Below, piece after piece: positions 59,769 through 64,000 of a DNA stretch of 64,000 nt; position 1 is the first letter of the stretch; each line of letters begins with the position of its first letter. This DNA comes from Thalassospira lucentensis (GTDB taxonomy: Bacteria; Pseudomonadota; Alphaproteobacteria; Rhodospirillales; Thalassospiraceae). The stretch spans positions 62,001-126,000 of the forward strand of contig NZ_JAATOV010000008.1 in NCBI RefSeq assembly GCF_011806425.1. Reading direction: 5' to 3'. The notes beneath the pieces are model-generated. The model made no database searches. It was not told where the DNA came from and was given only the letters and a program-made list of their open reading frames with translations. The translations under genes were made by a program, and so were the position numbers.

Positions 59769-60221
59769 CTAATTGTTTGCGCCGGATGCAGTTGCCAAAG
59801 CGTCGCTCAGTGAGCCGCTCGTGGAATTCGTTGAATTATCTGTGGTGTTTGCGGTCTGGTCGCCTGTGGAATCTTGCCCCGTATCGACGACGCCGTTTGA
59901 ATTGTTCATGATGATGCAGGCGGAGTTCGCCGTCGCAGAGGACGTGCCACCGCCACCACCGCAGACCAATTGGGTCAGGCTGCCGCCGGTGCCAGTACCA
60001 GTGCCGGTGGATTTATCAAAAAGACCGCTTTCGGCTTGCTTCATATAGACAGCAAGTGACGAGCGATCTCGTGATTTTGCTGACCACGGCTTTTCAAACA
60101 TCTGAGCAGAGACTGGCGCAACCTGCGTTAACAGCATTCCTGCGGCCACCAAAACGGGTGCACCCCATTTCAGCATGCGGCGCGTTTTTGGAAAGTTCGT
60201 GGTCTGAGCGGGATAAGCCAT
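59769..60221 (-). CDS. Secreted low-complexity protein of the HfaB-like locus
   Basis: A 150-residue protein of unknown family. A membrane-directed signal segment (about 17-40, ending VSAQ) is followed by a Thr/Gly run (TGTGTGTGG), two Cys (about 87 and 100), a Gly run and an Asn/Thr/Ser-rich tail (TGDQTANTTDNSTNSTSG). The ribosome site AGGAGGG is strong. It lies downstream of the repeat-protein gene across a stem-loop. A minor fibre subunit or adhesin is possible, but the resemblance to curli or Hfa proteins is weak. Confidence 0.6.
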   Translation of the reverse strand: MAYPAQTTNFPKTRRMLKWGAPVLVAAGMLLTQVAPVSAQMFEKPWSAKSRDRSSLAVYMKQAESGLFDKSTGTGTGTGGSLTQLVCGGGGGTSSATANSACIIMNNSNGVVDTGQDSTGDQTANTTDNSTNSTSGSLSDALATASGANN

Positions 60222-60256
60222 GATCCATCCCTCCTAAGGTTATGTTGCCTTGTCAG

Positions 60257-60291
60257 GCAAAAAGGTGCGGGAGAACAATTTGTTCTCCCGC
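60257..60291 (-). terminator. Attenuating hairpin between the repeat protein and low-complexity protein genes
   Basis: On the minus strand a 10-bp stem (gcgggagaac / gttctcccgc) with a 5-base loop is followed by ACCTTTTT. It would lower expression of the downstream gene relative to the repeat protein. Confidence 0.7.
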
Positions 60292-60301
60292 TGGGCTGAC
60301 G

Positions 60302-61057
60302 TTAGTCGTCCAAGCCAACTTTGACCGAGATGTTGTTCCCGATGGCCGAAGCAGCTGCATTGACCTTCGCACCTGGGTTCCCCCAGCCGCTTGCAACGCC
60401 GCCAACTTGGGTAATGGCTGTTACGTCGGCAAAGGAGAACTGCGAGGCATCGGCAATTGCGACGCTTTCGGTGTCACCCGGATTGACCGTGAAGCTCAGG
60501 TTGTTGGAAATAGCGGTCGAAGTTGCATCAACCGTTTTGACGCCACCCGTCCACATCACTTCGGAGTAGGCTTTTACTTCTGCCTGATCGAGCCCACCAC
60601 CGAGTGCGGCGTCGGTCATGTCGAGGGCATCGGAAAGGTCTTCAGCGCCGCCACCATGGCCGTGTGAATCCATCACGAACTGAGTGGTGTGGATGTTGCC
60701 GATTTCTTCGCCTTCAAGCGACATGTTGTTGCCAACAGCCGTTGCTGCACTGTCGACTTTCAACTCTTTACCGAGCACGCCGTCAATCTTTGACACTGCT
60801 TTGATGTCGCCGATCTGGACCTGTTCGAGTTCGCCAAGCAAATAGTCTTCTGCTTGGTTGATGTTCAGGTTGATGTTTACTGCGCTGTCAACGTCAGCTT
60901 CCCAATCCCATTTATAGTTATTGGATGATGAGCTGCCGCCGGAATTGCCGCCGCCGCTGCCGCCGCCGTTATTCCAGTCCCAGGCGAATGCCTGTCCGGC
61001 AAACATAATCATGCTACCAGCCATAAGGGTGCTGATCATAAGTTTTGACTTGGTCAT
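60302..61057 (-). CDS. Secreted protein with three A-I-G-N-N repeats (putative Hfa/curli-type subunit)
   Basis: A 251-residue exported protein: signal peptide (1-25, ending AFA), Gly/Ser/Asn linker (30-47), then three copies of a 30-36 residue unit ending in a shared motif: VDSAATAVGNNMSL (101-114), VDATSTAISNNLSF (176-189) and VNAAASAIGNNISV (232-245). Each unit opens with an acidic-V/I-x-A motif. The pattern recalls the ATAIGNN stretches of holdfast anchor proteins HfaA/HfaD. It overlaps the HfaB-like gene by ATGA, so secretion through it is likely. Confidence 0.7.
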   Translation of the reverse strand: MTKSKLMISTLMAGSMIMFAGQAFAWDWNNGGGSGGGNSGGSSSSNNYKWDWEADVDSAVNINLNINQAEDYLLGELEQVQIGDIKAVSKIDGVLGKELKVDSAATAVGNNMSLEGEEIGNIHTTQFVMDSHGHGGGAEDLSDALDMTDAALGGGLDQAEVKAYSEVMWTGGVKTVDATSTAISNNLSFTVNPGDTESVAIADASQFSFADVTAITQVGGVASGWGNPGAKVNAAASAIGNNISVKVGLDD

Positions 61058-61908
61058 TTCACTGTCTCCTGTTGGTCTTTACGTGATGCTGAAAACCGCT
61101 CCAAATGCCTGCTCATGTCGCTGCCTTCATCGAGCTGGCATTCCTCTTGCTGTGGCAGCCCCAAGAAATCTGTCATGATTTGATAGACCCCCATTTCTGC
61201 TACTGCCCTGACGCCGAGTTGGAGCGGTTCATTGCGGATCCGCCCGGCGTCAAATTCGACCAAATTTATCCCGAAGAACCGAAACACGCCGGCGCCTACC
61301 TCGTATCCGAGGATCTGCTTTTGCAAAGAGCTGACATATCGCACTGCGAAGTTTCGGGAATCGATTACGCGCATATCCATGGCCACATTGATCACGACGG
61401 TACGTCCGCCGCCGCCAATGCCCCGGATATAAAGCTGCGCGCCTTCACTCAGGATGTTGTAATTGAGTTCGGTAATGGCCCCGACCAAGATGAAGTCAGA
61501 GGCAGGAATCTTGTCATATTCAGTCGGTTCGCGATTAAGCCGACCCTGTTCCGACAGTTTTACTTCGGCCAGTGGAATGCGAAGATCAAATCGCTCGACA
61601 AGGTTCGCGCGACCGGTTTTATAAAGCGCGCTCATAACCATTTCTGTCGTGCCTTGGGAAACGGCATGGCCGTTTTCGTCGTAGTTGATCTGTCCCGTCT
61701 TGTCGGCAATTTCACCAACAGCGAATACTGGCAGCTGGCTTGCTTCAACATTTGCAAGCTGTCTTAAGCAGACGCTGTATGGCGTTTCGTTACTGGTGAC
61801 CGGAAACGAAACCATTGGCTCTACCGAGCCATTCACTGCGCTAACTCCGACCCCGCACCCCGTTAAGCTGCACAATGTTAAAGTTGTTGCTGCTAATTTT
61901 CGAAACAT
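61054..61908 (-). CDS. hfaB: HfaB/CsgG-family outer-membrane secretion lipoprotein
   Basis: A 284-residue CsgG-family protein with a lipobox SLTGC (Cys18). Conserved CsgG-type features include FPVTSNETPYSVCL (near 34), VFAVGEIADKTGQ, the glycine-rich IRGIGGGGRTVVINVAMDMRVIDSR and QKQILGYEVGAGVF. The N-terminal block is closer to holdfast anchor protein HfaB than to CsgG of curli. CsgG forms a nonameric outer-membrane pore for fibre subunits. It heads the leftward operon. Confidence 0.8.
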   Translation of the reverse strand: MFRKLAATTLTLCSLTGCGVGVSAVNGSVEPMVSFPVTSNETPYSVCLRQLANVEASQLPVFAVGEIADKTGQINYDENGHAVSQGTTEMVMSALYKTGRANLVERFDLRIPLAEVKLSEQGRLNREPTEYDKIPASDFILVGAITELNYNILSEGAQLYIRGIGGGGRTVVINVAMDMRVIDSRNFAVRYVSSLQKQILGYEVGAGVFRFFGINLVEFDAGRIRNEPLQLGVRAVAEMGVYQIMTDFLGLPQQEECQLDEGSDMSRHLERFSASRKDQQETVK

Positions 61909-62192
61909 ATTCGCCTTCCCCTTTACGAATGCAGGCTTATACAGCTCGCCTTTGCATGATTTATTATTGATCAGGGGGTGTTATTTAGTAAGCGAGATAA
62001 ATAGTTATAAGGTGGAAACTTCAGGTGCTTTATTTTTAACCATTTATGTTCTTTTTTATTCTTTTTCGTCTTTCTGAATATTTTGGGTTAGTCCTTTTGA
62101 GATGCGTGGGGACCCGGATGTGCAATTGTCAATGCGCTTGGAATAGCCGAGCCTGAAAACGGGGGTAAGGCAAACCCAAGGAGGGCATTGAT
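61909..62192. promoter_or_regulatory. AT-rich divergent region of the HfaB-like locus
   Basis: The non-coding region between the HfaB-like gene and the CsgD-like regulator is markedly AT-rich (especially 61980-62080), unlike the surrounding genes. It should hold both divergent promoters. A strong ribosome site, AAGGAGGG, precedes 62193. Confidence 0.6.
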
Positions 62193-62825
62193 ATGAATAT
62201 GATGCACGACGCTCATTCCCAGCCACGCCGGGTTCTGGCTGTTGGGTTTAATGCGTCTGAAAGCAAAGCATTGGCCGATGGAAATGAGCTGTCGTTTTTT
62301 GCTGATCCAGAATTCAGTTTGCTTCATCGCGACACTGTCGGTTTTGATGGCGCAATTATCGATCAGAAACAGCTTGGCAGTTTGCAATATAATCAGGCGC
62401 GCTATCTGGTCGAGCTGACCCGCAAAATGCCGCTACTGGCCTATGTGACGGATGCGATTTTCTTTGATTCTCGTCATTGCCCGTGCATACCCGACGGGCT
62501 GATTTTCAGATCCCGACTAAGAATGCTCGAAAAAGTATGTCAGCTTGGAAAAGCGGGATATTGGGCTTTGCCCGGGCAACTGGAATGGCAGGATTTGCTT
62601 TTGGGCAAATCGCGGGACGATTTGTGCGCCGGATTTGGTGACGTCGAATGGGCATTTCTCAATTGCCTAAAGGACGGACTTTCGAACCGACAAATCGCCG
62701 CGAAAATTGAATTGAATATTAGCGAGGTCAAAGTGAAATTGATCGAGCTATATCGACGGTTGGGCGTTGAGAACCGGACGCAGGCCGCTATCGTTGCTTT
62801 TTATTTGGCCATGGAACGAGAATAA
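62193..62825 (+). CDS. CsgD-like LuxR-family regulator
   Basis: A 210-residue regulator. The first 130 residues resemble a degenerate receiver domain like that of CsgD, without the usual pair of N-terminal acidic residues. The LuxR helix-turn-helix follows at 150-200 (LSNRQIAAKIELNISEVKVKLIELYRRLGVENRTQAAI). It probably controls the HfaB-like operon and the gene downstream; the trigger is not visible. An AAGGAGGG ribosome site fixes the start. Confidence 0.78.
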   Translation: MNMMHDAHSQPRRVLAVGFNASESKALADGNELSFFADPEFSLLHRDTVGFDGAIIDQKQLGSLQYNQARYLVELTRKMPLLAYVTDAIFFDSRHCPCIPDGLIFRSRLRMLEKVCQLGKAGYWALPGQLEWQDLLLGKSRDDLCAGFGDVEWAFLNCLKDGLSNRQIAAKIELNISEVKVKLIELYRRLGVENRTQAAIVAFYLAMERE

Positions 62826-63054
62826 TCGAAGTCAGCGTTTGTTTACTCATCTCTGTCTGAAAATAACTCCAGATTATCGATGGTATTATTTCGAATGCCA
62901 GATAGTCATTCCGATAGATATTTTCGGGATCATAGGGGGTATTTCCCCTTTATTGGATGTTTCTGAGTTTTTTCAGACTATATAAAAATCGTTATTCGAT
63001 TCTTGTCTGAAGTCTCAAATATTTCAGAGGCTTTTAGGAAAATGAGGTAGTAAA

Positions 63055-63570
63055 ATGACCAGCTCCAGTCTCTTCCGGTTTCTGTCAATTTCTACATTTC
63101 TGCTAATTGTATTTGCCTGCCTGCCGTTTGATGCGCATGCGCAACTCAACAATAAACCTTATTCCTTTGGGACGCCCGATGGCTCTGTCGGGATGAGTAG
63201 GGCGGCAAAGCAAGCGATCATTAACGATCAGCTTTTTAATGTTCGTCCGCAGAATATGTTACGCGGCCTAACAGGTGAGCTTTTGTCGGTTGAGAAAAGC
63301 AAAGGCGGCACAGCGCTTGTTCGTGATTCTGCGGGGGCAACTCTGCCAGGTTATCGCGGAACGAACGTATTTGGTTCGGGGCAGTTTGCAGGTGCATTTA
63401 ACAGCTACTTTGTTTCCGATAGTACCGTCGACCGCCCTCCCTATAATCTTCATGCGCGCGATGCGATTAACGGGTGGATAAATTTGGTCGATACGCGCGG
63501 TGTTCCTTTGATTTCCTATGGTGCGCCGTCCCCCATCGATGCCTGGACCTCGATGGTCCGCTGGAACTAG
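63055..63570 (+). CDS. Secreted protein of unknown family in the HfaB-like locus
   Basis: A 171-residue protein with a signal peptide (about 1-29, ending AHA, followed by QLNN). I do not recognise a family. The mature region has GMSRAAKQAIINDQLFN near 44-60, a LRGLTGELLSVEK block near 69 and several Tyr/Asn/Gly turns. GAGGT precedes the ATG. Its place between two LuxR regulators beside an HfaB-like pore suggests a surface-exposed or anchor role, by inference. Confidence 0.6.
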   Translation: MTSSSLFRFLSISTFLLIVFACLPFDAHAQLNNKPYSFGTPDGSVGMSRAAKQAIINDQLFNVRPQNMLRGLTGELLSVEKSKGGTALVRDSAGATLPGYRGTNVFGSGQFAGAFNSYFVSDSTVDRPPYNLHARDAINGWINLVDTRGVPLISYGAPSPIDAWTSMVRWN

Positions 63571-63601
63571 GGGGATGGGCACAAAGGAATTATTCAGGTT
63601 T

Positions 63602-63637
63602 AAGAACGGTTGAGATCAGGCGATCTCGACCGTTCTA
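63602..63637. terminator. Hairpin between convergent genes at the right end
   Basis: Arms of 14 bases (gaacggttgagatc / gatctcgaccgttc, one G-T pair) with a 4-base loop. The plus-strand stop and the minus-strand stop are both close; T-runs are short, so efficiency is uncertain. Confidence 0.55.
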
Positions 63638-64000
63638 AAGGCAGGTGTCGGCCGGGAACGCAATGCCCAGATTGCCGCCTGCGTGCGGTTATCGACCTTT
63701 ATTTTGCGCAGGATACTTTTCACGTGCACTTTTACGGTCGCCTCTGAAATATTTAAGTTCAGAGCAATGCGTTTATTGGAATCGCCGCGCGCCAGGCAAT
63801 CAAGGATCTCTCTTTCGCGGTGAGAAAGATCGATATTGTCGCATGTATGATCGGAAATCCCGATGGACGACATATACTGAAAGCGCTCCATCATCACATT
63901 GGCCAGATTTGAAGGGTAAATCTTTTCGCCTTCGCTCATAAGCCGCAATGAGAGCTCAATGGTTGTCTGCGAGACATCATTTAACAGTGCGCCGCTAACC
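63616..64000 (-). CDS. LuxR/NarL-family response regulator, N-terminus cut by the window edge
   Basis: At least 128 residues of the C-terminal part are visible, and the frame stays open to the right edge with no stop. The left part (LLNDVSQTTIELSLRLMSEGEKIYPSNL) looks like the end of a receiver domain, followed by a LuxR helix-turn-helix (LSHREREILDCLARGDSNKRIALNLNISEATVKVHVKSI). Internal TTG/ATG codons near 63948 are therefore not the true start. It is probably a second regulator of the locus. Confidence 0.8.
   Translation of the reverse strand, partial: VSGALLNDVSQTTIELSLRLMSEGEKIYPSNLANVMMERFQYMSSIGISDHTCDNIDLSHREREILDCLARGDSNKRIALNLNISEATVKVHVKSILRKIKVDNRTQAAIWALRSRPTPAFRTVEIA

Follow-up and report, generated by a model that had tools for sequence, protein, structure and literature searches.

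In the genome of Thalassospira lucentensis (RefSeq assembly GCF_011806425.1; 4.5 Mb in 12 contigs), the 64,000-nucleotide stretch analysed here, hereafter the window (contig NZ_JAATOV010000008.1, positions 62,001 to 126,000), closes with a six-gene cassette built around a putative secretion pore of the CsgG/HfaB type (Table 1). The group is present as the initial annotation described it: the genes for the pore, a three-repeat secreted protein and a small secreted protein follow one another leftwards, while the opposite strand carries a divergent LuxR-type regulator and a third secreted protein of 171 aa, met by a convergent second LuxR-type gene. The start of the repeat gene lies within the stop codon of the pore gene, with a 4-base overlap, and translation of the two is therefore probably coupled. 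The second LuxR-type gene is truncated by the window edge; complete (L002:5616-6338), it ends at what would be position 64338. Judged from homology and modelling, there is about an even chance that the cassette serves the CsgG/HfaB-type export of a surface anchor or cross-beta fibre and is an unnamed, distant cousin of the HfaABD system.

Table 1. Features of the cassette (positions in the window)
Feature	Position	Strand	Basis
CsgG/HfaB-type outer-membrane secretion lipoprotein (predicted pore)	61054..61908	-	PF03783, NF037935, CsgG structures by profile
Three-repeat secreted protein, 251 aa	60302..61057	-	HfaD-like by profile only; three repeat units
Small secreted protein, 150 aa	59769..60221	-	HfaA-like by profile only
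AT-rich divergent intergenic (control) region	61909..62192		G+C 0.412
LuxR-type regulator, 210 aa	62193..62825	+	PF00196; only HTH domain recognised
Third secreted protein, 171 aa	63055..63570	+	short mature-N-terminus motif common with small protein
Second LuxR-type regulator, 240 aa in all	63616..64000, runs past window end	-	NarL-like overall

The pore, which the initial annotation had called recognisable, exceeded the cut-off of the CsgG family (PF03783, 88.8 bits against 20.8), stayed under that of the HfaB model (NF037935, 171.6 bits against 300) and did not reach the 505 bits needed for the CsgG equivalog (NF011731, 51.6 bits). Its profile matched solved CsgG structures at 8.8e-23 over pore positions 45-251, and the homology covers the membrane-spanning part. 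A lipobox (LTGC) in the pore and signal-peptide-like starts in all three other secreted proteins were read from the sequence by eye, without a predictor. The first LuxR-type regulator matched PF00196 with 31.6 bits and scored 27.6 bits on the CsgD equivalog, against a cut-off of 250. Pfam gave no match for a receiver domain in the second, beside which three carriers of the cassette hold an extra LuxR-type paralogue (L013:14769-15503, L014:14992-15726 and L015:14045-14779).

Our comparative analysis revealed that the pore is kept together with its partners in relatives. A 14-row pore alignment scanned against the genome contigs of 84,980 species gave 85 relatives, the best 80 of which (79 loci) were kept; a pore open reading frame (ORF) was recognised in 77 of the 79. 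In 66 of 79 loci the repeat protein adjoins the pore and shares its strand, and the small protein stands behind the repeat gene in 64 of these 66 (the count missed L091 and L095, where its ORF starts inside the repeat gene). The listed repeat ORF starts at most 100 bases from the pore stop in 59 of the 66. Seven of the 66 (L103, L123, L124, L127, L129, L132 and L136) show irregular ORF starts or a pore frame that is split. Thirteen loci lack the repeat protein: L089, L098, L109 and L134, all near contig ends, together with L115, L137 and L139-L145. The pores of L137 and L139-L145 are 37-40% alike to that of the window and mostly have another HfaA-like protein upstream. As judged from ORF clustering and example sequences, LuxR-type genes accompany 62 of the 79 loci; the same clustering placed the third secreted protein in 38, on the opposite strand every time. 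A Sel1-repeat protein (Sel1 by Pfam) occurs in 14 and a small lipoprotein-like gene in 16. Plasmids of V. alginolyticus and Photobacterium carry pores 54.8% and 52.3% identical to that of the window, with the same two partners.

In a pore tree of 102 rows, identical rows being used once, the 71 cassette pores (those with a repeat gene, plus L089, L098 and L115) formed one clade with support of 100/100, and 19 HfaB proteins above the curated cut-off formed a separate one (100/99); the group of 12 other pores needs two changes on the tree, and since long branches meet there, as the program warned, the relations between groups are unsure. Several genomes show further arrangements. A Fodinicurvata genome (L057, L058 and L059) holds 5 pores, 6 repeat proteins and 6 small proteins, and its repeat and small genes are paired even where a pore copy is missing. 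Two long proteins lie behind a lone-branch pore (L140:6879-8714, 611 aa, and L140:8924-10786, 620 aa), are unmatched in Pfam and contain 11 and 9 C-half repeat units with weak scores. On a Variovorax plasmid, a pore 37.1% identical to that of the window (L005:5866-7281) lies between a small Asn-rich protein, upstream, and a protein of about 1566 aa annotated as S-layer family, downstream.

The cargo is not readily named. None of the 150-, 251- and 171-aa proteins matched a Pfam or NCBIfam family above cut-off, the cargo of the relatives also stayed below every curated family cut-off, and the HfaA and HfaD equivalogs were unmatched both across the genome and among the window proteins. A strong identity with CsgA/CsgB or HfaA/HfaD was thus rejected by Pfam, curated-model and genome scans, in agreement with the earlier view that the cargo is no simple match to these families; the partner proteins nonetheless proved less unfamiliar than had been proposed, as remote links emerged from profile comparison. 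Using hhalign, we compared the small proteins (72) with HfaA (9) and the repeat proteins (80) with HfaD (5, later two more). The small protein and HfaA matched at probabilities of 97.0 and 96.1 over about 40 C-terminal columns; the repeat protein and HfaD matched at 95.6 and 79.6, and at 97.0 and 94.3 over about 120 columns after the two HfaD sequences were added. Reversed-alignment controls gave probabilities of 0.1-0.5, and 40 column shuffles for each link reached top scores of 16.8 and 16.2, compared with real scores of 64.1 and 50.2 (73.3 in the reverse direction). Among the other pairs, values were 84.9 for repeat and small protein, 76.4 for HfaA and the third protein, 54.2 for HfaD and HfaA, 6.0 for repeat and third protein and 4.8 for HfaD and the third protein; the small and third proteins matched at a probability of 92.7 over 18 N-terminal columns. 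Because Asn-rich repeat families are somewhat alike among themselves, the kinship of the repeat protein with HfaD is likely rather than demonstrated, and the failure of single repeat-unit models to find HfaD counts against it. The iterated small-protein model, which drifted to take in HfaA and the third secreted protein, served only for counting small proteins behind the repeat gene.

Three C-half repeat units were present in 70 of 80 repeat proteins, the set that also trained the model, and in the protein of the window, and three N-half units in 55 of 80. Of the 80, 75 carry the motif F[DENS]xxxWxW after the signal peptide; the window's own protein lacks it, but keeps both tryptophans in the alignment. 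By pattern search, 61 of 72 small proteins begin, once mature, with a P-[WYF]-type motif, and several of the 11 others show variants of it. Passages of a published study describe binding of the N-terminal segment of CsgA by CsgG (PMC12822426), and by analogy these mature N-terminal motifs may be recognition signals for the pore. At least 247 proteins were matched by the repeat profile (7997 candidates scored) and at least 104 by the small profile (7993 scored); among the matches listed (120 for the repeat profile), the database names printed in full read hypothetical or uncharacterized, except for P0198, called thiamine phosphate synthase in one source. Four repeat-protein relatives (P0008, P0009, P0020 and P0024) bear the precomputed labels PF27294 or PF27277, neither of which was reported by a Pfam scan of P0008 and P0009.

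An HfaABD-like polysaccharide anchor, with the pore and two surface proteins serving to fasten an exported sugar polymer, would also agree with the remote links of the cargo to HfaA and HfaD. This main rival appears unlikely, yet deserves serious weight: the genome contains one Poly_export gene, and in Caulobacter, HfaA and HfaD are described as surface-located and HfaB-dependent in passages of one report (PMC6707917). Poly_export, however, is present in all 29 Thalassospira genomes compared (exactly one match in 27), carrier or not, and a link between this gene and the cassette was rejected since the two do not track each other. Furthermore, no polysaccharide gene was recognised among clusters found in at least 4 of the 79 loci, as judged from example sequences without a family scan.

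The initial annotation had suggested a new surface fibre or anchoring system, and structure prediction of the repeat protein bears on this in part. The model is beta-rich with moderate confidence. At E<=0.001 Foldseek matched it to a single structure, that of the amyloid FapC, a weak likeness, with ice-binding and adhesin beta-helices in the lower rows. The output of VIA-align covers FapC, the CsgA fibril and SufB-SufC-SufD only and is silent on other folds. Searched against PDB sequences, the repeat profile gave no match at E<=10, FapC included, and the model of the small protein was disordered and thus uninformative. The beta-rich model would also suit an ordinary folded adhesin or S-layer-like protein, passing through the pore without forming a polymer; with beta-helices among the later rows, any beta-helix fold is conceivable, and HfaD is compared to S-layer proteins and adhesins in passages of PMC6707917. 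The top fold match of the repeat protein is, however, an amyloid, and we regard the folded adhesin as rather improbable. CsgG-type pores are, moreover, known exporters of unfolded amyloid subunits.

The cassette is variable within the genus, as had been proposed: the pore was found in 6 of 29 genomes and is missing from 23. The complete six-gene set is present in the genome of the window and four others; in the sixth carrier (G013), the contig ends after the pore. A single chromosomal site is demonstrable for five of the six carriers, where mscS and nadC lie 5.8-10.1 kb apart; in G013 the two are on different contigs. In 22 of the 23 non-carriers the two genes are separated by 414-1520 bases, and in the remaining one, G009, by 3.2 kb. 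Of the neighbouring genes, mscS and corA were named by Pfam, and nadC, nadA, nudix and glnA, on the other side, by eye. A tyrosinase-domain gene (Pfam basis for the G009 copy only) occupies the mscS-nadC site alone in G009 (L146:976-2535) and beside the cassette in G019 (L014:6758-8314).

Comparison of two carrier species, G010 and G019, revealed that the pore and the repeat gene were recently exchanged as one block. Their DNA identity is 99.7% in the pore and 98.5% in the repeat gene, compared with 90.1% in the small gene, 74.5% in luxR, 77.0% in the third secreted gene, 83.0% in the second luxR, 89.7% in nadC and 84.2% in mscS, and a sliding comparison shows it falling from 100% to 72% immediately upstream of the pore start. 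Silent sites are alike as well, which selection at the protein level would not preserve, and the block exchange is therefore recent. That the two genes moved together speaks for both working as a pair.

Mobility, the other part of the earlier proposal, received no such backing. The control region is AT-rich as claimed (the intergenic stretches flanking luxR have G+C of 0.412 and 0.349, and the pore-regulator gap has 0.33 and 0.302 in two other carriers), and AT-rich intergenic DNA is common; the unlike surroundings were borne out only in part, the G+C of the cassette genes (0.484-0.552) being ordinary beside 0.528 for the whole window, and a foreign island judged by base composition was rejected on these values. 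Carriers stand at three places in the mscS+nadC tree, a pattern compatible both with transfer and with old presence followed by losses. A mobile adhesin module acquired as a foreign island, for which the presence in 6 of 29 members at three places in the tree and the related cassettes on Vibrio and Photobacterium plasmids might be cited, is the least probable of the explanations, because the neighbours are the same in carriers with both flanks visible, the csgG proteins of carriers roughly follow the order of nadC relatedness (the exchanged pair excepted), gene composition is ordinary and the ORFs read from mscS to nadC showed no mobile gene, a dedicated search not having been made.

On the exporter reading, the lipoprotein would form an outer-membrane pore, as its CsgG homology suggests, through which two unfolded cargoes, the three-repeat protein and its small HfaA-like partner, would pass, the conserved mature N-terminal motif of each possibly marking it for export. 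Outside the cell, as the model and the repeat pattern suggest, every repeat unit may fold to one cross-beta layer, and the molecules may stack into a fibre or surface patch, which the small protein, in view of its one-to-one pairing, might cap, nucleate or anchor. The third secreted protein is probably additional cargo, and the LuxR-type regulators probably govern the divergent promoters. The more specific proposal of a new functional amyloid class, with a FapC-like three-layer cross-beta subunit, a CsgG/HfaB-type pore and an HfaA-like partner, distributed in Alphaproteobacteria, Halomonadaceae and Vibrionaceae plasmids, is tentative and somewhat less than evenly poised. If it holds, the profile link would extend the fold to HfaD, and an amyloid-type stack would then anchor the holdfast.

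CsgG relatives outside curli were recorded in 2012 as unexplained paralogues in passages of PMC3521004, and the portions of the literature searched held no account of the cassette outside the holdfast. With the cassette, one large group of these CsgG relatives acquires a gene order, a consistent cargo and a function that can be tested, in marine hosts that can be cultured and that comprise both natural carriers and non-carriers. Should the repeat protein polymerise, it would link three systems so far studied separately, through the pore of curli, the repeat pattern of Fap and the anchor of the holdfast.

Among known systems, the HfaABD holdfast anchor of Caulobacter likewise combines an HfaB-type pore and two small secreted partners in one operon, and the cassette cargo is remotely related to HfaA and HfaD by profile (probability 94-97 both ways). 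In contrast to holdfast loci, the order in the cassette is B-D-A instead of A-B-D, its proteins fail all three curated Hfa models, its pore falls in a different clade, and LuxR-type regulators and a third secreted protein stand alongside; no tie between cassette and holdfast was found. With curli the cassette has in common a CsgG-family pore and LuxR/CsgD-type regulators. Curlin repeats (PF07012) were absent from the window proteins and from all 29 genus genomes, the E. coli control being matched, and neither CsgE nor CsgF was found in this genome, the one searched; some alphaproteobacterial curli also do without both, according to passages of PMC3521004. The likeness to Fap lies in the three imperfect repeats of FapC with conserved Asn/Gln and variable linkers, and in the weak fold match, whereas the repeat sequence of the cassette protein differs and its predicted exit is by a CsgG-type pore.
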